A DNA stretch of 64,000 bases from Planctomycetales bacterium 10988. Its GTDB lineage: Bacteria; Planctomycetota; Planctomycetia; Pirellulales; Pb10988. The notes beneath the pieces are model-generated. The model made no database searches. It saw only the letters and a program-made list of their open reading frames with translations, and had not been told where the DNA came from. A program made the position numbers and the translations under genes. Shown piece by piece: positions 9,966-59,346 of this stretch; the stretch's first letter is position 1, and every line of letters begins with the position of its first letter. The DNA is taken from NCBI GenBank assembly GCA_009664345.1, contig CP043547.1, positions 930,001-994,000 of the forward strand, in the 5' to 3' direction.

Positions 9966-10108
9966 GCCAATTTTCTTGCGACAAGCCTCTCATGACCCCA
10001 ACCTAGCAAGTGGTGTACTCCCTTTTCCTCCCAATTACTTCAGGTTAATATAAGTAAATATGCTATAGACTCACTCTTATATTCTCTTCGAGATAGGCGG
10101 ATACCTCG

Positions 10109-13100
10109 ATGAAGTGGTTGGAACATTTCCACAAGAGCCGAAGCGCTCCTTGCTCGCAATCGATGTTTACAATAGACACACCGCTACGAATCGAGGCGTT
10201 GGAGCAGCGATATCTCCTTTCGGCGGAACCCTTCCTTATCGATATCAATCAGGTAGGAACCTCGTCCCGAATCAGCAATATTACTGAGCTGAATGGGGAG
10301 ATTTATTTTCAAGTTGATTTGGAGCGTAGTAAGCGGCAGCTGTGGAAGAGTGATGGGACTTCATCGGGAACGCAACTTTTTTACGACTTTCACGATCAGC
10401 AGCAATCAAATTTTTCCACCTATTTGACAAACGCGAATGGTACTCTCTTCTTTCAGGCATATGATCCTTTAAATGGATTTCAACTCTGGAAAAGCGAGGG
10501 AGCAACAGCCAATGCCCAAATAATCCAACCCCAGGAACCAAACCATGCCTTTGCCCATCCTCAATATTTAACAAACGTGGGCGGGACTGTTTTTTTCAGT
10601 GCCTTCAATAGTACTCTCGGAAAAGAACTTTGGAGAAGTGATGGTAGTTCCAGCGGCACAATATTAGTAAAAGACATTAACCCTGTAGGCTTGTCTTCGG
10701 CCCCTTCAGACCTGGTCAATATAAACGGCACACTTTTCTTCGAAGCATCGAACTCTCTGGGACAGGGGCTTTGGAAGAGCGATGGCACCTCGGCTGGGAC
10801 GCAGCTCGTCAAAAATATTCATCAAAACAGCCACAGCCAGGGAATCGATTTCCTTACCAACGTCAATGGCACGCTATTCTTTGCTGCGAATGATGGTTCT
10901 ACTGGCCGAGAACTTTGGAGAAGTGATGGGACATCTTTAGGAACGATGCTCGTCAAAGACCTGTGGTCAGGGGCAGAATCAGGGGCACCTAGCTTTCTCG
11001 AAAATGTCGATGGCATTCTCTATTTTGCGGCAAATGACGGTTGTTCCGGGATCGAACTTTGGAAAAGCAATGGCACCTCAGAGGGGACTTTACTGGTGGC
11101 GGACCTATTGCCTGGAAACGACGGGTCTATCCAGAAAAGTTCAACCCCTAGCTTTTTAACAAATGTTGATGGCACGCTTTATTTTCGAGCTTTTGTTGAT
11201 GGGCTGGGGGTGGAACTTTGGAAGAGCAATGGGACAAGTAGTGGAACACAACTGGTACGCGACATTTTTGTAGGGGAGCCTTGGTCGATTCCTCAGCAAC
11301 TGACGAATGTTGATGGCACTTTGTTTTTTACTGCAAACGATGGAAGCGTGGGGAGTGAGCTCTGGAAAAGTGACGGAACATCTGCCGGAACCCAATTAGT
11401 CAATGATTTCAACCCAACTAGTACACAGGCCGCTTCCCCTGCAAATATCACAAACGTCGAAGGTATAACCTTTTTCACTGCTGATGATGGTGTCCACGGG
11501 ATCGAACTTTGGCGAAGTAATGGCACCTCAGCTGGGACCTATCTGGTCAAAGATATACGAAATGGTGCAGAAAGTTCCTCTCCCCAGAGTCTGACGAATT
11601 TTAACGGAATGTTATTATTCTATGCCAATGACGCGGTAACCGGCTCCCATTTATGGAAGAGCGATGGAACTTCCAGCGGTACGCAGCCGATTAAGGATCC
11701 GATGCCGGATTCGATTGAACTTCATACATCGACGTTTATTGATGGAACGCTATATTTCAAAGGCTCGGATGCATCTTTGGGGACCGGTCTCTGGAGAACT
11801 GATGGTACTTCCGAGGGTACAGAGTTGATTAAGAGTCTGAATTTCTCTTTAGGTACAATAACCAATGTAAATGGTGATCTTTACTTCTCGGCCGAAGGTG
11901 ACCTGTGGAGAAGTAATGGAACCTACGAGGGTACTTATCAAGTCAAGGCTTTCTCAGGTGTTGGACCGCTAGAAAATGTCAACGGGACGTTATTTTTCTC
12001 TGCCAACGAGGCTTCCTATGGCACAGCACTCTGGAAGAGTGATGGAACTTCAGGAGGTACGGCATTGGTCAAGGATTTAGCCCCTAGGGACGCACCGTCA
12101 AGGTTGAGTTGGCTTACGAATGTCAATGGCACCCTGTTTTTTAATGCTGTAGTCGGAATTTCTGACCATGAACTTTGGAAGAGCGACGGAACCAGTATTG
12201 GAACTCAACTAGTTAAGGAAATAGAAGACGACATCTTAACAGGCTTAAATCCGAAGGAGCTGACAAACGTAAACGGAACCCTTTACTTTCGGGCCTATCG
12301 GAGAGGGATCGGCTACGAACTCTGGAAAAGTGACGGAACTTCTCAGGGCACTCAACTAGTTCAAGATCTAAGGGTGGGTAAAGATTCGAGCGTTAGAACC
12401 TCCGACTTTGCAAATATCAATGGCACGCTCTTCTTTAGTGCGAATGATGGGAACCATGGCTATGAGCTTTGGGGATTTGTGCCAGTCGAGCAAAGGGCTT
12501 TGACGGTAACCGGGTCCGATGCCGGAGAGCCGGGGATTGTACGGATCCACGATCTCTTTGGTTCCGAGCTTGCAAGTTTCAGCCCTTTCCCGGAGTCGTT
12601 CACAGGGGGCGTTCGAGTCGCCACAGGTGATATCAACAATGACGGGATTCTGGATATCGTCGTGGCTGCGGGGCCAGGGGGTGGTCCCCATGTGCAAGTC
12701 TTTGACAGTGAAACGCTTCAGCTGATCGAAGGGGGGCTCAATAACTTCTACGCTTATGATCCACTTTTTGGAGGAGGAGTTCAACTTGCGGTGGGCGACG
12801 TCAATGGAGACGGCTTCGATGATATTCTCACCGGAGCCGACGCCGGAGGCGGCCCTCACATCAAAGTCTTCGACGGCCAATCCGGTCAAGTCATCCTTGA
12901 AACGTATGCTTATGATCCTGGATTTACAGGCGGGGTTCGCTTGGCAGCCGGAGATATCGATGGGGACGGGAAAGCTGAAATCATCACCGCTCCCGGAGTT
13001 GGTGGCGGGCCGCATATCCGGGTTTTCGATGGCACAACAGGACAGCAAAAGACAGGTCCTGCGACGGACTTTTACGCTTACGATCCCAGTTTTCTCGGCG

Positions 13101-13633
13101 GTGTTTATCTCGCTGCTGGTGATCTCAATGGAGACGGCAAGGACGACATCGTCACTTCCCCTGGGGCAGGAGGCGGTCCACACGTCAAGGCATTTGATTC
13201 TGAGAGAGGAGAGTTACTACAGAATTTCTATGCCCACAGTGCGGACTTTTTAGGAGGCGTTAGAGTCTCCGTGGCGGATATCAACCAAGATGGCTTTGGG
13301 GATATCCTCACTACTCCTGGACCATCTGGTGGTCCCCACACCAGGGTTTTCGATGGCAAAGACCTTGATGATATCACCAACTTCTACTCCGGCCCCTCGG
13401 ACATCCTCGACGGACTCTTCATCGCCGGTGGCATCAGCTACATCCCGATCGAAGACCCCGCTCCAACCTCGGCACCTTTCACTAGTCCCATGATCACTAC
13501 CAAAGAAGTCTCTCCTGAAGGCATCACTTTAGAGAACCTAGCAAAGAAAAAATCTTGGCAAGACGACGCCGAGGATTTCTTCCAATCCGCCGAAGAAATC
13601 GACAAGCTCTTCAGCGGACTAGGCATCGAATAA
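10109..13633 (+). CDS. Giant ELWxxDGT-repeat and FG-GAP-repeat protein with LEPR-XLL-like N-terminus
   Basis: The 1174-residue protein opens with a short N-terminus containing RIEALEQRYLLSAEP near residues 28-42, an LEPR-XLL-type signature found at the front of very large planctomycete surface proteins. Fifteen copies of a motif of the form ELWKSDGTSxGTxLVKD follow, spaced 45-55 residues apart, and a sixteenth is cut short (ELWGFV). Each copy is paired with TNVNGTLFFxANDG, giving a beta-propeller-like repeat. From about residue 800 there are five FG-GAP/VCBS-like repeats (GDxNGDGxDDIxTxxGxGGGP), whose DxNxDG loops suit calcium. The last 60 residues are low-complexity. No transmembrane anchor is evident. 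A secreted or surface adhesion-like role is inference from the repeat classes. It stands alone. Confidence 0.85.
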   Translation: MKWLEHFHKSRSAPCSQSMFTIDTPLRIEALEQRYLLSAEPFLIDINQVGTSSRISNITELNGEIYFQVDLERSKRQLWKSDGTSSGTQLFYDFHDQQQSNFSTYLTNANGTLFFQAYDPLNGFQLWKSEGATANAQIIQPQEPNHAFAHPQYLTNVGGTVFFSAFNSTLGKELWRSDGSSSGTILVKDINPVGLSSAPSDLVNINGTLFFEASNSLGQGLWKSDGTSAGTQLVKNIHQNSHSQGIDFLTNVNGTLFFAANDGSTGRELWRSDGTSLGTMLVKDLWSGAESGAPSFLENVDGILYFAANDGCSGIELWKSNGTSEGTLLVADLLPGNDGSIQKSSTPSFLTNVDGTLYFRAFVDGLGVELWKSNGTSSGTQLVRDIFVGEPWSIPQQLTNVDGTLFFTANDGSVGSELWKSDGTSAGTQLVNDFNPTSTQAASPANITNVEGITFFTADDGVHGIELWRSNGTSAGTYLVKDIRNGAESSSPQSLTNFNGMLLFYANDAVTGSHLWKSDGTSSGTQPIKDPMPDSIELHTSTFIDGTLYFKGSDASLGTGLWRTDGTSEGTELIKSLNFSLGTITNVNGDLYFSAEGDLWRSNGTYEGTYQVKAFSGVGPLENVNGTLFFSANEASYGTALWKSDGTSGGTALVKDLAPRDAPSRLSWLTNVNGTLFFNAVVGISDHELWKSDGTSIGTQLVKEIEDDILTGLNPKELTNVNGTLYFRAYRRGIGYELWKSDGTSQGTQLVQDLRVGKDSSVRTSDFANINGTLFFSANDGNHGYELWGFVPVEQRALTVTGSDAGEPGIVRIHDLFGSELASFSPFPESFTGGVRVATGDINNDGILDIVVAAGPGGGPHVQVFDSETLQLIEGGLNNFYAYDPLFGGGVQLAVGDVNGDGFDDILTGADAGGGPHIKVFDGQSGQVILETYAYDPGFTGGVRLAAGDIDGDGKAEIITAPGVGGGPHIRVFDGTTGQQKTGPATDFYAYDPSFLGGVYLAAGDLNGDGKDDIVTSPGAGGGPHVKAFDSERGELLQNFYAHSADFLGGVRVSVADINQDGFGDILTTPGPSGGPHTRVFDGKDLDDITNFYSGPSDILDGLFIAGGISYIPIEDPAPTSAPFTSPMITTKEVSPEGITLENLAKKKSWQDDAEDFFQSAEEIDKLFSGLGIE

Positions 13634-13761: not shown

Positions 13762-13935
13762 TTATCTTCTGCGAGGTAGGCGGATGTCGCTGGTCAAGAC
13801 CAAGGCGGTGATCATGGCTGCTGCGATGATCAGGAACAACATCCAGCTGCCCGAGAGTGCCGAAAACAGTCCGGCGAGGATGAGACTGCTAGAGAGGTAA
13901 ATGAAATTCAGTTTATCTCTGGCGGTGTAGCCCAT
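13762..13935 (-). CDS. 57-residue membrane protein at the end of the AAA+/DUF1257 operon
   Basis: This minus-strand frame has ATG at 13935 and TAA at 13762-13764. The peptide starts MGYTARDKLNFIYLSSSLIL and holds two hydrophobic helices (IYLSSSLILAGLFSAL and WMLFLIIAAAMITALVLTS), ending in a basic DIRLPRRR that would face the cytoplasm. AAGGAA precedes the start at a usable distance. It lies 60 bases after the stop of the preceding small gene on the same strand, so it is probably the last gene of the operon. It is short enough to be missed by standard length cut-offs. The function is unknown. Confidence 0.6.
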   Translation of the reverse strand: MGYTARDKLNFIYLSSSLILAGLFSALSGSWMLFLIIAAAMITALVLTSDIRLPRRR

Positions 13936-13995
13936 TGGGGTTTCCTTGTACTTCGTGGGAAAATGTTTTAGAAAAGCGATATTGTCTGTTGCCCC

Positions 13996-14214
13996 TTAGG
14001 CAGCGAGACGGCGACCGAGGGATAGTTTGAGGGTATCCATCGCGCGGTCGACTTCGACGTCATCCCAATCGATGACTTGGGGAGGAAGGTCATCCGGTTC
14101 GGGATCGAAGTCGTGATCGAAAGGGTCGGCGATACTGAAACCGAGACGACGAATTTCGCAGAGTGATTCGCCGGTTTGGGTGGCGATGGCTTGATCGAGT
14201 TCACGTTGAGTCAT
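13996..14214 (-). CDS. Small acidic hypothetical protein in the AAA+/DUF1257 operon
   Basis: The 72-residue protein starts at an ATG preceded by AGGAGAACAACACC, a good ribosome site. It reads MTQRELDQAIATQTGESLCE then a Pro/Asp-rich acidic middle (DPFDHDFDPEPDD) and ends in a basic helix (KLSLGRRLAA). The N-terminus with GESxCEIRRLGF is a pattern I associate with short conserved planctomycete proteins. A terminator-like hairpin lies just upstream, between it and the preceding gene. The function is unknown. Confidence 0.6.
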   Translation of the reverse strand: MTQRELDQAIATQTGESLCEIRRLGFSIADPFDHDFDPEPDDLPPQVIDWDDVEVDRAMDTLKLSLGRRLAA

Positions 14215-14241
14215 GGTGTTGTTCTCCTGGAGAAATAGAAA

Positions 14242-14260
14242 AAGCCCGGCGAGCGGGCTT
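14242..14260 (-). terminator. Terminator-like hairpin between two operon genes
   Basis: AAGCCCG at 14242-14248 pairs with CGGGCTT at 14254-14260 around a five-base loop. On the minus strand the hairpin is followed by a short U run. It lies between the stop at 14288 and the next start at 14214. Confidence 0.6.
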
Positions 14261-14287
14261 GAGAGTTAAGATAATTAAAAAGTAGTT

Positions 14288-14692
14288 TTAGCTTTTGGAG
14301 GAACGGTAGCGGCCTTTGTGATCGCGGGTAGGTTCGGGTAATTGATTGATTACCGTTTGCTTGGCGACTTCAGCAGGTAAGCCGGAACGGGTGAGCACGG
14401 CGATGGTCTGTTGGTCAAGAAGTTTGATTTGAAAGCGAAGGCTTTCCTTTTCTGCCTTGCTCCGTCGCTGTTTGAGCTGCTGGCGAAGGGTCTGCTTTTG
14501 CGATTCGATTCCTTCCAGCACCGCGTGGTAGGCCCCCATCCGTTGCATGACGCGAGCGACTTCACTTTCGAGGCGAATCCCTTCAGCAGCAGTGGCCATC
14601 GAGACGACAATCGCTTCTTTCAAACCGTCGATAAAGGCATTGACCTGGTGGCTCACGGCTTGGGTATGAGTACCTTCCTGTGGGGTTGTCAT
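14288..14692 (-). CDS. Hypothetical helical protein in the AAA+/DUF1257 operon
   Basis: The 134-residue protein begins at an ATG with AAGGAGAATAG directly before it, one of the best ribosome sites in the window. The sequence is helical and charged, with a coiled-coil-like middle (MGAYHAVLEGIESQKQTLRQ, LKQRRSKAEKESLRFQIKLL) and a basic C-terminus (RDHKGRYRSSKS). No catalytic motif is seen. Position and strand place it in the operon headed by the DUF1257 gene. The function is unknown. Confidence 0.6.
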   Translation of the reverse strand: MTTPQEGTHTQAVSHQVNAFIDGLKEAIVVSMATAAEGIRLESEVARVMQRMGAYHAVLEGIESQKQTLRQQLKQRRSKAEKESLRFQIKLLDQQTIAVLTRSGLPAEVAKQTVINQLPEPTRDHKGRYRSSKS

Positions 14693-14762
14693 CTATTCTC
14701 CTTATATATCATGGCGATAGGTAAGTTTAAAAAACACTTTTTGGGTTACTGCTCAGTCTCGC

Positions 14763-15008
14763 TTATTGATGTGGAAGCCAATGCTCCTGGAGCCAGCAAA
14801 CCTCTGCCGCCAGGGCTTCGGACCGTGTGGCGAACGGGCCAAGCAGCGGGCCATGCACCAGAGCAAGATCAGCATGCCAGTTTCCTTCCGTGGTTGGCTC
14901 CACCTGCGACCCTCGACGAATGGCAAGTTTCCCCATTTCGCGAAGCGGGAGCATTTCGTCGTAGAGACAATGAACGTTTCCGGTGGTCTTGATATGGAGT
15001 TCCATCAT
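14763..15008 (-). CDS. Small hypothetical protein in the AAA+/DUF1257 operon
   Basis: The 81-residue protein starts MMELHIKTTGNVHCLYDEML and contains GPFATRSEALAAEVCWLQEH, a pattern seen in short proteins where a strand pair is followed by a helix. The first of two consecutive ATGs is at 15008; GAGGAA abuts it, so the second (15005) may be the true start. The upstream gene ends only ten bases earlier, so coupled translation is likely. The family is not recognised with certainty. Confidence 0.55.
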   Translation of the reverse strand: MMELHIKTTGNVHCLYDEMLPLREMGKLAIRRGSQVEPTTEGNWHADLALVHGPLLGPFATRSEALAAEVCWLQEHWLPHQ

Positions 15009-15018
15009 TTCCTCGAAG

Positions 15019-15963
15019 TTAGCGGGGTTTGCGGAGAATGTTCCTGCGAGGACGATCGACCAATAGATCGTCGAGCGAGCCGCGAACCTCAGCCAATTGC
15101 CCGGCGATGCGGTCTCTCAAGAAATCATTATCCCGCAGCTGATGCGGCCTTACCCCTCGCAGAATGCCTTGGGCCTGTGCGACGAAGGCATCAAGTTCCT
15201 CATTGGATCTGACGCTTAGACTGCGGAAGCGATCGAAGAAGTCGGTGAAGTTCGTCACCGCCGAATCTCGAAAAACCTTCGGCTTGCCATCGACCTGACC
15301 GCTCAATCGCTCGTGGAGATGCTCCACCAACTTGGACAACTCTTCGATGAAGGCCGATTCGGCGAGTTGCACGGCTTCTTCGAATCGCGACTGCATTCGC
15401 TGGCATTCCTGCGTATACAATGCCGGATTCAGCTGTTGCAAATAGGCTGGCGGCTCGACCGAGGGATAGTCGTACTCGATGGCAAACATCCCGATCAGAG
15501 ATGCCGGATAGTCCGCAGGATTGAAAAGCTCGCCCAAACGCCTCTGGGCCGCGCCTCGCAATTCTTCATAATGCTGATCGAGCTCCGCCACGGCAACGGC
15601 GAGTTCTTCGCGGAACCGGGCCATCTTTTGGTCGAACTCTCCAATCGCTTCCTGCCGAATCAGCCGAATGCCCGCTTCGGGAAATGGGAGACTGCTTCCC
15701 TTCCAGTAGCTGGTGGCCTGGCTGCGGATCGCGGTCACCGCCTTGTAGGCCGGATGCGAAGTATCGATCAGCTTCTTGTTGGCCGAGAGAAAACTCCCCT
15801 CGGCACCGAAGGAATCAGCTGCTTGCTTCTTCTGCTGCGTGTTCAATGATTTGCGGACGCCGAGCCAAGTGAACCGGACGCGGGCCGCCGCCATCGTCGC
15901 TTGTATCCGTTCGCTAGTGGTGATGCTTACCGTGCTGGTGGTTTCGTTGAGGATCGTGCTCAT
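15019..15963 (-). CDS. Hypothetical protein, possibly DUF3150-like, in the AAA+ operon
   Basis: The 314-residue protein is mostly helical, with a conserved-looking front (VRFTWLGVRKSLNTQQKKQA), a central block with FNPADYPASLIGMFAIEYDY, and a long C-terminal helical region (EELDAFVAQAQGILRGVRPH). The arrangement resembles DUF3150 proteins, which in phage and ICE modules sit next to a MoxR-like AAA ATPase; this resemblance is from memory and not tested. It is directly downstream of the AAA+ gene on the same strand, as expected for a substrate or adaptor of that ATPase. Confidence 0.55.
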   Translation of the reverse strand: MSTILNETTSTVSITTSERIQATMAAARVRFTWLGVRKSLNTQQKKQAADSFGAEGSFLSANKKLIDTSHPAYKAVTAIRSQATSYWKGSSLPFPEAGIRLIRQEAIGEFDQKMARFREELAVAVAELDQHYEELRGAAQRRLGELFNPADYPASLIGMFAIEYDYPSVEPPAYLQQLNPALYTQECQRMQSRFEEAVQLAESAFIEELSKLVEHLHERLSGQVDGKPKVFRDSAVTNFTDFFDRFRSLSVRSNEELDAFVAQAQGILRGVRPHQLRDNDFLRDRIAGQLAEVRGSLDDLLVDRPRRNILRKPR

Positions 15964-15994
15964 TGTGGATACTCCTGAAAAAGAAAAAGTCGGT

Positions 15995-16016
15995 GAGGAA
16001 TCGAAAAAGATTCTTC
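15995..16016 (-). terminator. Terminator-like hairpin after the AAA+ gene
   Basis: GAGGAATC (15995-16002) pairs with GATTCTTC (16009-16016), seven of eight positions, around a six-base A-rich loop. On the minus strand U-rich sequence follows. It lies between the AAA+ gene and the DUF3150-like gene. Confidence 0.5.
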
Positions 16017-16061
16017 ATCAGCTTCTAAAAAGTATTTTTTGGATTTTGTGATCGTTTACAA

Positions 16062-17552
16062 TTAGTTGTGGGAAGGGTCTGGGGTGATGCAGCGGGTCGA
16101 TTGGCTGTGGTTGGGCATAAACCGATAAATCCCTGGCTGACTGGCATCGAGACATCGGCCGCTGGCCCAATTGCGTAATCGCTCGATGGATTTCGATGCC
16201 GTGACCGCTACCGGGACGACATTTTGCACGGCCTGCGAAAGAGGCAAATCAAGCAGAGCCGCCAGTCGGCAAGTCGCTTTGATTTCGGCCCCGGTAAAAA
16301 AATCATCGCTCGGCAGCTGCTGGTCGGGATCGATTTCGTATTGAGAACGATAAAGCTCCCAGATGAGGTCTTTCTCATCTCGACCTGGCAAATCGAGAAA
16401 GAACAGACCGTCCCATCGTTCACTTCTAGAGAACTCCGGCGGCAGCTTTGAAATATCATTGCAGGAAGCGACCACATACACATCGCTCTCGCGATCCGAT
16501 AGCCACTGCAAGAAAGTGCCAAATAGCCGGGAAGAAACCCCGCTATCGGTTTGTCCGGAACTACCCAGGCCACTGAAGGCCTTTTCGATTTCATCCAACA
16601 AAACAATTGAAGGCTCCATCGCGTCGATGGTGGCGAGGGCTTGCCGGATCCTTCGCTCAGTCTCGCCGACCAGCGAACCATAGAGACTGCCAACATCGAG
16701 CGTAATGGTCGGACGTCCGACTTCCTTACCCAAAGAACGGCAAAAAGCGCTTTTTCCAACTCCAGGAACCCCGAGCAATAAAACTCCTTTGGCTCGCTTG
16801 TGAGGATTCGCCCGACTCGGTTGCAAGAGCGACCTGCGACAAAAGGTTTTTAGTGCCGCCAGACCTCCGAGACTCTCGAAGTTTTCTTCACTACGACAAA
16901 GAGACAAGGCACCGCACTTCTTGAGAGTTTGTGCTTTCAGCTCCCAAACGGTCTCCGCCGTAATATTACCTTCACGTACTAAGGAAAGGCTGAAGGCGTT
17001 TTCAGCTTCCAATCGAGTCAAGCCGGAAGCAGCATCCAAAATCCGTTCACGATCGCGCCCCTCGGGATATTCACCTTCCTCGGTAGCGATCCCCTGAGCA
17101 ATCGCATCGAGTTGCTCGCGGCCCGGCAAAGCATGTTGTAAAACCACAAACATCTTTTCGAGTTCCACCGGCAGTTGCACGACAGGTGAAAGAATCACCA
17201 AGATCGTTCGGTTCTGCTTCCCTAAAAGAATCTGCCTGCTCAAAGCCTGTACAATCTCCGCTGACTGCAGAAACCGATGAAAATTTTCTAGCACCAAGAT
17301 CGCCGTCCCCTCGGGAGTGGCCATCGCATTCACTGACCGAATCGCCGACAGCGGATCGATCGAATTCGTCTCCTCTGTACTCTGTCCGGCGACCCTCAAG
17401 CCCGATTCGATATTCCAAGAACTGAGCTGCCAGCCTTCTTGATGGCAAAGCTCAGCCATTTCGCTCAAGGCATCGGCATGCTCATGCGACTCGATCCAAA
17501 TCCCGGTAAAACACGCCCGCACATATTCTGACAGTTGTTCTGTAAGTGTCAT
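16062..17552 (-). CDS. Ycf46-like AAA+ ATPase
   Basis: The 496-residue protein has an N-terminal regulatory half (residues 1-225), weakly P-loop-like in sequence (TAILVLENFHRFLQ near 90), and a C-terminal AAA+ module. Walker A is GVPGVGKS at 261-268, Walker B is IVLLDE ending at 321, and an ARF/second-region segment reads SRSERWDGLFFLDLPGR near 395. This two-half plan is that of Ycf46 proteins of cyanobacteria and plastids. The start at 17552 is chosen because GAGGGCGAAAAG precedes it; a longer in-frame extension upstream would run through a terminator hairpin. It is cotranscribed with DUF1257 and DUF2997 genes, an association also seen in cyanobacteria. Its substrate is unknown. Confidence 0.8.
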   Translation of the reverse strand: MTLTEQLSEYVRACFTGIWIESHEHADALSEMAELCHQEGWQLSSWNIESGLRVAGQSTEETNSIDPLSAIRSVNAMATPEGTAILVLENFHRFLQSAEIVQALSRQILLGKQNRTILVILSPVVQLPVELEKMFVVLQHALPGREQLDAIAQGIATEEGEYPEGRDRERILDAASGLTRLEAENAFSLSLVREGNITAETVWELKAQTLKKCGALSLCRSEENFESLGGLAALKTFCRRSLLQPSRANPHKRAKGVLLLGVPGVGKSAFCRSLGKEVGRPTITLDVGSLYGSLVGETERRIRQALATIDAMEPSIVLLDEIEKAFSGLGSSGQTDSGVSSRLFGTFLQWLSDRESDVYVVASCNDISKLPPEFSRSERWDGLFFLDLPGRDEKDLIWELYRSQYEIDPDQQLPSDDFFTGAEIKATCRLAALLDLPLSQAVQNVVPVAVTASKSIERLRNWASGRCLDASQPGIYRFMPNHSQSTRCITPDPSHN

Positions 17553-17575
17553 CTTTTCGCCCTCTATATTAGTAA

Positions 17576-17600
17576 ACAAAAAAAGCCGCCCGAAGGCGGC
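17576..17600 (-). terminator. Strong terminator-like hairpin between DUF2997 and AAA+ genes
   Basis: GCCGCC (17585-17590) pairs perfectly with GGCGGC (17595-17600) around CGAA, a stable tetraloop. On the minus strand seven U residues follow. This is a textbook intrinsic terminator placed inside what otherwise looks like one operon. Confidence 0.75.
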
Positions 17601-17636
17601 CTCTATAAATAGAAACAATGTCTTTAAATAATCCTG

Positions 17637-17831
17637 CTAGCCACGTTGTTGTTGCCGAAGTTCATTTACTTGCGATGTATAAAACTCGGCTGTCAACTTC
17701 TCACTGTGTGTCTTGCCAAGACCTTCCTTTAAAAATTCGCTAGCCTCGCGACACTCACCTCCGGCAAAGCCTTTGGTCTCGACACGGCTTTGTCCTTGCG
17801 GCGAAACAATAATTTCTATCACTTTCCTCAT
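17637..17831 (-). CDS. DUF2997 family protein
   Basis: The 64-residue protein matches the DUF2997 pattern: IIVSPQGQSRVETKGFAGGE, then CREASEFLKEGLGK. Proteins of this type pair with DUF1257 proteins in cyanobacteria and planctomycetes. Its start overlaps the DUF1257 stop as ATGA, so the two are translationally coupled and probably made in fixed ratio. The function is unknown; the single Cys at the start of the helix is conserved in what I recall of the family. Confidence 0.8.
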   Translation of the reverse strand: MRKVIEIIVSPQGQSRVETKGFAGGECREASEFLKEGLGKTHSEKLTAEFYTSQVNELRQQQRG

Positions 17832-18196
17832 GCGGCACCTCCCATGCTCACGGTCACCTTGATCGATCCATCCGCCAGCAGCTGTTCAGTAGCGAGATGA
17901 CCACGATTTCTCGCCTCCAATTTCGCTTTTTCCACGGCATATCTTTGTAAAAGCCGGTCAAGTTCCTGCGGCTCACCCCACCTGCCATTGAAATGATCGT
18001 ACCGGCACTCTCCACTCGCCAAGTTATGAACAACCGGGTACCGCCACCCTGGCAGTTCCACTCCCAAACCTTCTACTTCACCGCTAAACAACTTGAACTT
18101 CCCTTCGGTAGGGAGCGGCAATCGCAATCGTTCACACGCCGCCCGCAACGCACAAACATCTCGAACCTCTGTTTGAATTTCCACAATGTGTGACAT
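17828..18196 (-). CDS. DUF1257 (Ycf35-like) protein
   Basis: The 122-residue protein starts MSHIVEIQTEVRDVCALRAA, the characteristic opening of DUF1257/Ycf35 proteins. It continues with WRYPVVHNLASGECRYDHFN and ends near TEQLLADGSIKVTVSMGGAA. AAGGAGAAGCG lies just before the ATG at 18196, which rules out the in-frame extension to 18274. It is the first gene of the operon. Ycf35 is a plastid and cyanobacterial protein of unknown role. Together with DUF2997 and the Ycf46-like ATPase it makes a recurring set. Confidence 0.8.
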   Translation of the reverse strand: MSHIVEIQTEVRDVCALRAACERLRLPLPTEGKFKLFSGEVEGLGVELPGWRYPVVHNLASGECRYDHFNGRWGEPQELDRLLQRYAVEKAKLEARNRGHLATEQLLADGSIKVTVSMGGAA

Positions 18197-18248
18197 TCGC
18201 TTCTCCTTTGTTTCATTTGACTTGAATAACAAGCTCACCCATAAACAC

Positions 18249-18330
18249 AAAAAAAGCCTCGACATGATCCCCATTAGAAGATCAAATCAAGGCTTTTCCT
18301 CACTAAAACCGGCCAGCTTAGCTAACCGGT
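18249..18330 (-). promoter_or_regulatory. Leader with two hairpins ahead of the DUF1257 operon
   Basis: The first hairpin pairs AAAAGCCT (18252-18259) with AGGCTTTT (18290-18297), plus an inner five-pair stem, and a run of seven U residues follows it on the minus strand. The second pairs ACCGG (18308-18312) with CCGGT (18326-18330). Lying 50-130 bases upstream of the first start on the operon strand, the first hairpin is either an attenuator or the terminator of a lost upstream gene. Confidence 0.5.
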
Positions 18331-57722: not shown

Positions 57723-57724
57723 TA

Positions 57725-59262
57725 GTCGTCCCTGAAAAAAGGTCTTTTTTTCTCGCTTTTATCAAGCGAGGAGGGGAGTGCGGGTTCGGGGGGGAGCCAT
57801 TGCTGGGCAGGTAAACGCTTCTTTGAGGAGCTTGAGGAGCAGGGCGAGCTGTTGCCACGGCCAACCAATCCGCGCAGGCCCGAAAGCCAAAAGTAGTTTT
57901 CGGATGTTCGCCGCCGCTCCAGCCAAGACCGCGTTGATCGCGTCACCGGCCAAGCCCTTGAGAAAGCAACGTCCCAGAAGGTGGTCCGACTTGAGGTGGC
58001 CGATCTTTGGCTCGATCGCGTTGCGGCGTCGGCGGCGTTTTTTCTGGGTCCGACTCAGGCCTCGCGTGCTGCTGCCGGCCAAGTGAACCCTCGCTGGACC
58101 ACGGTAATCATGGCCGCGATATCCCTTGTCAACGAAGGCGTCGCTCACCGCTTGGCCGGTCGTCGACTCGACCGTTTGCAGCGTCGCGGCGAGGGTGTGG
58201 CCGTCGTACGGATTGCCCTCGCACAGCCGCACGCCGACGACCCAATTGCCGCGATTGCTCGTCGCGAGGGCGATCTTTTGCCCGAATTCGTACCGCCGGT
58301 GGGCCTTGCCTTTGCTGATGCAAACCACCTCCGGCTCGTGGAGGCTGTAGAGTTTTTGCTTATCATGCGGCTGCTGCCGGTGGACGCGTTCGCACAAGAA
58401 CAGCAGTTTTTCCAGGGAAAAATCGGGCTTCGGCTGCTTGCGGCGGACGTCGCGGATCACCCGACCGAGGCAAGTGCGGAGCTTTTTGAGGCGGCGTCGC
58501 ATCCGCTTGAACTGCTTGGCGTGGGCATAACGACTCGCTTGCAGGGCGGCCTGCTTGGCGACGTTGACATACGATTGCCGCAGGCGAATGCCCCGCGTTT
58601 TGGCCGCCTTGCCGAGTTTGTGGATCGCCTTCAGCAGCAACTTCGAGTCGGCGGCGTGATATTTTTCTCCTGCACGGTCGTGTCGACGGTGACCTGCCGC
58701 AGCTCTTGAGGCCGGACTTGCTTGCTACGAACGGCCAGAGCGAGGGTCTCTTCCAGCAGCTGTTGCAGCCGTTCGGCCCCGACGCGTTGCCGCCATTTGA
58801 TGAGCGCGGTGGGATGAATCGGCGGCACATGTTGCATCGTCGTGAAGCCGCAAAAGCACTGCCAGTACGGGTTTTCCACCCAACGATCCAGCAGCGATTC
58901 GTCCGACTCGCCGAAGGCGTGCTTGAGATAATGCAGCCCGACCATCAGCCGGGTGGCCTTCGCCGGAGCCCCGAAGTCGGCGGCATAACAGCCCTCGAAC
59001 GCCGCCTCAAACCGCCGCCAATCGATCCGCTCGGCGAGACGAACAAGCGGATGCTCGGGGTTGAGAATCTGCTCGAACGACGCCCGAAACAGGTCCTGCT
59101 GGTTCGACTCTGGGTTCAAAGGCGGCTTCATCACCGTTCTCCGTTTGCAAGGTTTGCAAGGTCAAGGCCGAAAATCCTGGCAAAGTTTACCCTACCCTTC
59201 GCCGGTGTTAAAGCTATCATACCCAGGAAAAATTGAATTTTTAAGACTTTTTCAGGGAGGAC
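57725..59262 (-). mobile_element. IS5-family insertion sequence with TA-type target duplication
   Basis: Terminal inverted repeats of the form GTCSTCCCTGAAAAA start at 57725 on the left and end at 59262 on the right; both ends are flanked by TA. The transposase frame inside is on the minus strand and broken once (see pseudogene). Confidence 0.75.
57762..59134 (-). pseudogene. IS5-family transposase split by a frameshift
   Basis: The N-terminal frame (58631-59134) has ATRLMVGLHYLKHAFGESDE and WQCFCGFTTMQHVPPIHPTA. It stops shortly after VDTTVQEKNIT. The C-terminal frame (57762-58640) has LLLKAIHKLGKAAKTRGIRL, the DDE parts VVGVRLCEGNPYDGHTLAAT and DKGYRGHDYRG, and NIRKLLLAFGPARIGWPWQQ near the end. 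The junction near 58650 is explained by loss of one four-base unit from a CGACCGAC repeat, which would restore TPPTDSKLLLK. Without that the protein is in two pieces and inactive. Confidence 0.8.
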
Positions 59263-59346
59263 TACATATTCCCGCTGCTTTTCGTAGCAACGAAGGAACT
59301 TGACATGGAGTTCAGCGATTGCTTAGTGCGATGTGTTATATGTTTG

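Follow-up and report, generated by a model that had tools for sequence, protein, structure and literature searches.

A Ycf46-like AAA+ ATPase module with DUF1257, DUF2997 and DUF3150 proteins, multi-copy in a planctomycete genome and shared with phages

The genes ycf35 and ycf46 are conserved in cyanobacteria and algal plastids, and we know of no biochemistry for their products. In cyanobacteria ycf46 belongs to the stress operon slr0373-slr0374(ycf46)-slr0376 (PMC7496141, PMC7283877), which reacts to iron deficiency and oxidative stress and has a reported role in CO2 utilisation (PMC7496141). A second cyanobacterial DUF1257 gene, ycf35, clusters with DUF2997 and fed7 (PMC4284462), and among 127 red algal plastids both ycf35 and ycf46 are genes whose retention follows habitat (PMC5940233). 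A search by name of a PubMed Central library found three papers mentioning DUF1257 or DUF2997, none of which describes the module; no paper there names DUF3150.

The eight genes and their families

The window, meaning the whole stretch of 64,000 nucleotides analysed here, covers positions 930001-994000 of the 6.65 Mb, single-contig genome of Planctomycetales bacterium 10988. A sequence-only reading had placed a DUF1257 protein, DUF2997, a Ycf46-like AAA+ ATPase and five smaller proteins together in it, and this gene content is confirmed as eight collinear ORFs on the minus strand:

13762..18196, minus strand: whole eight-gene set, all ORFs present and collinear
17828..18196, minus strand: DUF1257 (Ycf35-type), 122 aa, invariant N-terminal MSH; from family profile and annotated relatives
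17637..17831, minus strand: DUF2997, 64 aa, G-x-x-G-x-x-C motif; PF11211 E=1.7e-13
16062..17552, minus strand: Ycf46-like classic-clade AAA+ ATPase, 496 aa; from PF00004, phrog_8638 and tree
15019..15963, minus strand: divergent DUF3150 protein, 314 aa, mostly helical; from family profile and AlphaFold/Foldseek
14763..15008, minus strand: 81-aa protein from a family without a name (motif R-x-S..E..W..R..E) that recurs in phages; from profile and conservation
14288..14692, minus strand: 134-aa coiled protein, only in copies within this genome
13996..14214, minus strand: acidic protein, 72 aa, present in copies of planctomycetes and in L176, a viral contig
13762..13935, minus strand: 57-aa membrane protein, in the window, L023, L244, L042 and L050
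18756..18831, minus strand: tRNA-Pro(CGG), directly after which the block common to the window and copy L023 begins

The tRNA was the sole match in an Rfam scan of the locus. As the earlier reading had it, the DUF1257 stop and the DUF2997 start overlap in an ATGA (17831/17828). Between copies in this genome dN/dS was 0.03-0.38 for all eight genes, wherever computable, so all eight are under purifying selection, and the small 57-aa ORF, too, is a genuine gene. Next to the set lies a protein of 1174 aa with ELWKSDGTS-type repeats (window 10109-13633); its C-terminal part also adjoins copy L023, and the shared block therefore extends past the operon to about 12818.

The DUF2997 gene scores above its Pfam cut-off (50.6 bits against 24.1 for PF11211), and the DUF1257 gene, searched as a single sequence, falls below that of PF06868 (13.9 bits against 22.2, E=0.067). 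The DUF1257 family profile recovers publicly annotated DUF1257 proteins (E 1e-14 to 1e-25), and we assign the window gene to the DUF1257/Ycf35 family by this iterated profile, its DUF2997 partner and its Met-Ser-His start, which is kept in 92/100/93% of alignment rows. Four natural DUF1257-DUF2997 fusions were found (L145, L183, L186 and L227), from which a complex of the two proteins is predicted. The only structural model of the pair is the L145 fusion, from another organism, which AlphaFold folds as a compact single unit (pLDDT 92, pTM 0.86). Foldseek returned no PDB relative of this model with a convincing TM-score; RnlA (E=2.4e-4) and spermine synthase reached just 0.25-0.34, and we claim no homology to either.

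DUF2997 has a single conserved cysteine, present in 97% of rows and placed at a helix start in the fusion model. This residue fits a role in redox or iron-sulphur maintenance, with DUF2997 a modified or metal-bearing carrier loaded or unloaded by the ATPase and DUF1257, by which phages would keep an Fe-S or radical enzyme working. The cyanobacterial DUF2997-ycf35-fed7 cluster (PMC4284462), the response of slr0373-slr0374-slr0376 to iron deficiency and oxidative stress (PMC7496141) and the radical-SAM gene, NrdG-like, that immediately precedes the ATPase at 8 genome and 4 viral loci point the same way. However, the window and most viral copies have no radical-SAM or ferredoxin gene, only one cysteine is conserved and the stress responses of the cyanobacterial operon are broad, which leaves this role unlikely in our view.

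The ATPase matches PF00004 (E=2.2e-24) and, over its full length, phrog_8638 (E=2.6e-82). Its C-terminal half is predicted to be an active-type AAA domain, and its N-terminal half, aligned by eye (alignment A1), reads as an AAA domain without a P-loop. Judged by similarity that runs through the N-terminal half and by the adjoining DUF1257 gene, it is a Ycf46-like protein; among solved structures its closest relatives by sequence match are Cdc48/p97. PADLOC, NCBIfam and PHROGs matched only the AAA domain and phage families without a name, and no system as a whole. In SGI1 the 'Ycf46-superfamily' protein is a toxin-antitoxin ATPase whose partner is a subtilisin, and we treat it as a different system.

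The 314-aa protein, which had been called DUF3150-like, has no direct Pfam match (the PF11348 cut-off is not reached). Its family profile recovers a Manganitrophus plasmid protein annotated as DUF3150 (2.6e-42), its relatives score as PF11348 (9.8e-25, 1.1e-15), and its AlphaFold model, a confident one (pLDDT 89), matches a phage DUF3150 (Foldseek E=1e-16, TM 0.76). By family profile and shared fold it is a divergent DUF3150, as proposed; Foldseek found no PDB fold match for the model. The DUF3150 and 81-aa proteins accompany the ATPase mainly in viral contigs. Co-occurrence of the smaller genes with the ATPase beyond close relatives, whose absence would have counted against the sequence-only reading, holds for the DUF3150 protein and the 81-aa family. 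It fails for the 134-aa gene, seen in this genome alone, and for the 57-aa gene, seen here and at the related loci L042 and L050; the 72-aa gene reaches planctomycetes and one IMG/VR contig (L176) only.

Terminator-like hairpins lie at four points in or before the set:

18255..18294, minus strand: leader hairpin ahead of DUF1257 (-23.9 kcal/mol), conserved in L023
17581..17604, minus strand: in the gap between DUF2997 and the ATPase gene, conserved in L023, L024 and L025
15986..16025, minus strand: before the DUF3150 gene, weak here and strong in relatives
14242..14260, minus strand: before the 72-aa gene, conserved in L023, L024 and L026

Hairpins were found 5′ of DUF1257 at 7 of 21 loci (0.6 expected), of the ATPase at 6 of 20 (1.4 expected), of the DUF3150 gene at 8 of 18 (0.0 expected), of the 72-aa gene at 5 of 13 (0.2 expected) and of the 81-aa gene at 0 of 16. 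The expectations were obtained by shuffling mononucleotides, which is a weak control, and it is chiefly in this genome and those closest to it that the hairpins stand out. Sigma-70 promoter matches were at chance level (3 found, 3.3 expected). Attenuation or phage-style antitermination would explain the hairpins. The eight genes had been described as one operon; their collinearity stands, but with the hairpins before the DUF1257, ATPase, DUF3150 and 72-aa genes a single operon is only a possibility.

Copies in the genome, their surroundings and exchange between them

This genome holds five complete copies of the set, in the window and at 444 kb, 561 kb, 5.56 Mb and 5.60 Mb (the last one truncated downstream), together with two broken ones, at 683-699 kb with a 13-kb insertion and at 5.62 Mb without the ATPase. 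As the window copy begins directly after tRNA-Pro, copy L023 begins directly after tRNA-Ala. The 81-aa gene of L023 is split by an IS-like element (10101-11644) that recurs, 99.8% identical, at window 57723-59264. Upstream of L024 are three serine recombinases, two of them confirmed by Pfam, and L025 has one related recombinase; the upstream ORFs of L026 read like recombinases by eye only. Around the window copy we saw, by eye, no recombinase or phage gene among the flanking ORFs, and no duplicate of the tRNA-Pro end that could mark an attachment site was found in the window or the genome. Comparison of the copies did not fix the element borders, and from its sequence the window copy is not an intact prophage or integrative element. 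CRISPR-like repeats (FQSTLPRGER frames) lie at L026 18001-18899, about 4.5 kb downstream of that operon copy.

These surroundings can also be read as a module for defence or inter-element conflict, with many copies held against phages or rival elements. Multi-copy islands, two of them by tRNA genes, a repeat array near one locus and a distant likeness of the ATPase to the anti-phage protein IetA would suit such a role. Against it, the ATPase has no partner that is a protease (IetS), a nuclease, an NADase or a pore protein, the IetA likeness is limited to the common AAA domain, and cultured phages themselves carry the module (below), so that we find this role decidedly improbable.

Sequence comparison indicates that the copies exchange segments. 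Between tRNA-type copies and the recombinase-type copies L024 and L025 the DUF1257-DUF2997-AAA block is ~89% identical over 2.08 kb (in L026 this identity is confined to the ATPase), and the part from DUF3150 to the 72-aa gene is ~70-72% identical between the two types. Tree distances run in parallel: 0.10 between window and L024 for the ATPase, against 0.78 to the relative L035, and 0.54 between window and L025 for DUF3150, against 0.55 to L035. Between L024 and L026 the DUF3150 and 81-aa genes do not differ (dS 0), but the ATPase genes have a dS of 0.59. Three genomes of the same order (G023, G039 and G052) have several copies each, clustering by genome in the ATPase tree, and in G023 a 2.1-kb shared block likewise lies in different backgrounds. 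The three-gene core DUF1257-DUF2997-AAA acts as a single unit in these exchanges; mixed hexamers between co-resident copies are, speculatively, one possible reason for its homogenisation.

Occurrence in phages, plasmids and other bacteria

Profiles of the window proteins were used to score the neighbourhoods of ATPase loci, 80 cellular and 80 viral, picked by best match and not at random; the viral loci include IMG/VR contigs, which are predicted viruses. DUF1257 stood beside the ATPase at 45 of the 80 cellular and 61 of the 80 viral loci, and DUF2997 at 22/80 and 54/80. Near it we found DUF3150 at 3/80 cellular and 45/80 viral loci and the 81-aa family at 2/80 and 23/80, respectively. Shuffled or reversed ORFs, the control for these profiles, gave 0 matches. 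Cellular loci with DUF1257 and/or DUF2997 by the ATPase came from Cyanobacteriota, Verrucomicrobiota, Myxococcota, Spirochaetota, Melainabacteria, Omnitrophota, Acidobacteriota and Bacillota, and the ATPase loci of Armatimonadota (7) and Chloroflexota (4) had neither gene. A reverse survey from DUF2997 at 30 planctomycete loci found DUF1257 within 1.5 kb in 29 and the ATPase in 27. Gene order in distant genomes had been set beforehand as the check on the eight-gene proposal, and the first five proteins do occur together in distant bacteria, on plasmids and in phages, with the order of DUF1257, DUF2997 and the ATPase recurring in many phyla and in tailed phages; we are close to certain that the association of the module genes is conserved.

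All 28 sampled cyanobacterial loci have the ATPase followed by a DUF1257 gene (L112, PF06868 E=3.9e-23). From this conserved position after ycf46, slr0376 itself is presumably a DUF1257 protein, and by layout the slr0373-slr0374(ycf46)-slr0376 stress operon is the cyanobacterial counterpart of the module. In cyanobacteria, Myxococcota and Verrucomicrobiota the cellular homologues sit in chromosomal regions where no phage genes are evident, and the core trio may therefore have an origin other than a viral one.

Module-bearing viral contigs encode terminase large subunits, DnaB, primase, RecE-/RecT-like proteins and ParB. Among cultured phages, JP1 (Agrobacterium), HJ05 (Aeromonas), FBPa45 (Pseudomonas) and RHph_I4 (Rhizobium) have the common order AAA-x-DUF1257-DUF2997-s81, where s81 is the 81-aa family, and most of these genes bear the annotation 'hypothetical'; the 81-aa match of JP1 is a weak one (E=5e-4) and placed further off. 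Mycobacteriophage Dylan encodes the ATPase as gene 95, after which comes gene 94, with a product of 275 aa. One Dylan protein of that length weakly matches the window DUF3150 model (E=7.6e-4, TM 0.35-0.39), and from its length we infer that it is the product of gene 94. The trio also occurs on plasmids of Manganitrophus, Bacillus licheniformis, Nostoc, Geminocystis and Thermovibrio.

Several other genes recur around these loci. In anaerobes and some plasmids (L137, L077, L046, L029) the gene immediately 5′ of the ATPase is the NrdG-like one. In some elements (L176 10116-12927, L043, L045, L054, L056) the module is followed by a ThiS-like small protein (in L176), a cysteine-rich protein and a ThiF/E1-like enzyme, which resemble a PRTRC cassette. 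A TOPRIM-looking family (VLLVVEGPNDIEFL) lies in or after the operon in L026 (8231-8902), L038-L041, L045 and L176 (6253-6882), and a family that looks by eye like a DNA polymerase sliding clamp follows it in L024 (13596-14849), L026 (13924-15081), L035, L036 and L042. Both families were named by eye, and a Pfam search recognised neither.

In an unrooted FastTree tree of 204 ATPase sequences, which has long branches, the planctomycete clade nests among viral sequences (98*/99* branches), apart from the cyanobacterial and other cellular branches. This bears on a further alternative, an ordinary planctomycete host chaperone operon spread by vertical inheritance and duplication, for which strong purifying selection, the mostly joint clustering of the copies of each multi-copy genome and the chromosomal trios of several phyla would speak. 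The interleaving of viral relatives with the planctomycete ATPases argues against it, as do the recombinases, tRNA sites and IS-broken copies and the patchy presence of the module (20 of 58 same-order genomes, this one included, and DUF2997 in 44 of 294 genomes of the phylum), and we rate a host chaperone operon as quite unlikely.

Proposed role and comparison with known systems

The reading we favour, tentatively and at a little under an even chance, takes the ATPase for a phage-derived remodeller of the Cdc48 kind, with DUF1257:DUF2997 as its adaptor and DUF3150 as a subunit on the client side, the whole carried on amplified and partly decayed mobile elements. The window set would then be a chromosomal copy of a phage- or mobile-element-borne AAA+ remodelling module. 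Its ATPase would form a Cdc48/p97-type hexamer, with a degenerate first and an active second AAA domain, pulling on a protein client, with DUF1257 and DUF2997 as one tight adaptor and the DUF3150 and 81-aa proteins as element-specific client-side subunits. The module may serve an early DNA-metabolism stage of the phage or mobile element, through replication-complex turnover or host-factor remodelling, as gene neighbourhood alone suggests. In the planctomycete lineage it would have been amplified with integrative elements, several copies staying under selection. The 'one machine' of the sequence-only reading seems better founded for DUF1257, DUF2997, the ATPase and DUF3150 than for the other proteins; beyond that reading, the unit exists in several copies, has links to mobile elements and is also found in phages. 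New here are the four fusions (with one joint model), the clade among viral sequences, the seven copies in one genome, the block homogenisation, the hairpins and the DUF1257 gene behind cyanobacterial ycf46.

Like the window, the slr0373-slr0374-slr0376 operon has a Ycf46 ATPase adjoining a DUF1257 gene, but it lacks DUF2997 and DUF3150, is chromosomal with no phage link seen, and has slr0373 upstream, a gene with no counterpart upstream of the ATPase among the window ORFs. The Cdc48/p97 unfoldases, the best sequence match among solved structures, likewise have two AAA domains (the first alike by eye), whereas the window protein has a degenerate first domain, no p97-type N domain and small partners of its own. 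IetAS, an AAA protein with a subtilisin, has the AAA superfamily in common, but the similarity is confined to the AAA domain and the eight window genes include no subtilisin-like IetS or other protease. Phages FBPa45, HJ05, RHph_I4 and JP1 resemble the window in AAA, DUF1257, DUF2997, 81-aa family and order, although their ATPases are just about 27-30% identical to the window's, the profile recognises no DUF3150 in them and the 72-, 134- and 57-aa genes are absent. It is possible, if on balance doubtful, that these loci represent an undescribed and widespread phage machine, with a Cdc48-like ATPase, a dedicated DUF1257:DUF2997 adaptor and a DUF3150 subunit without a PDB match, whose core, and probably biochemistry, are common with cyanobacterial and chloroplast Ycf46 and Ycf35. 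With ycf35/ycf46, DUF2997 and DUF3150 as parts of one module carried by cultured phages of laboratory hosts, the function of Ycf46 and Ycf35 may become testable in phages by co-purification and gene deletion.
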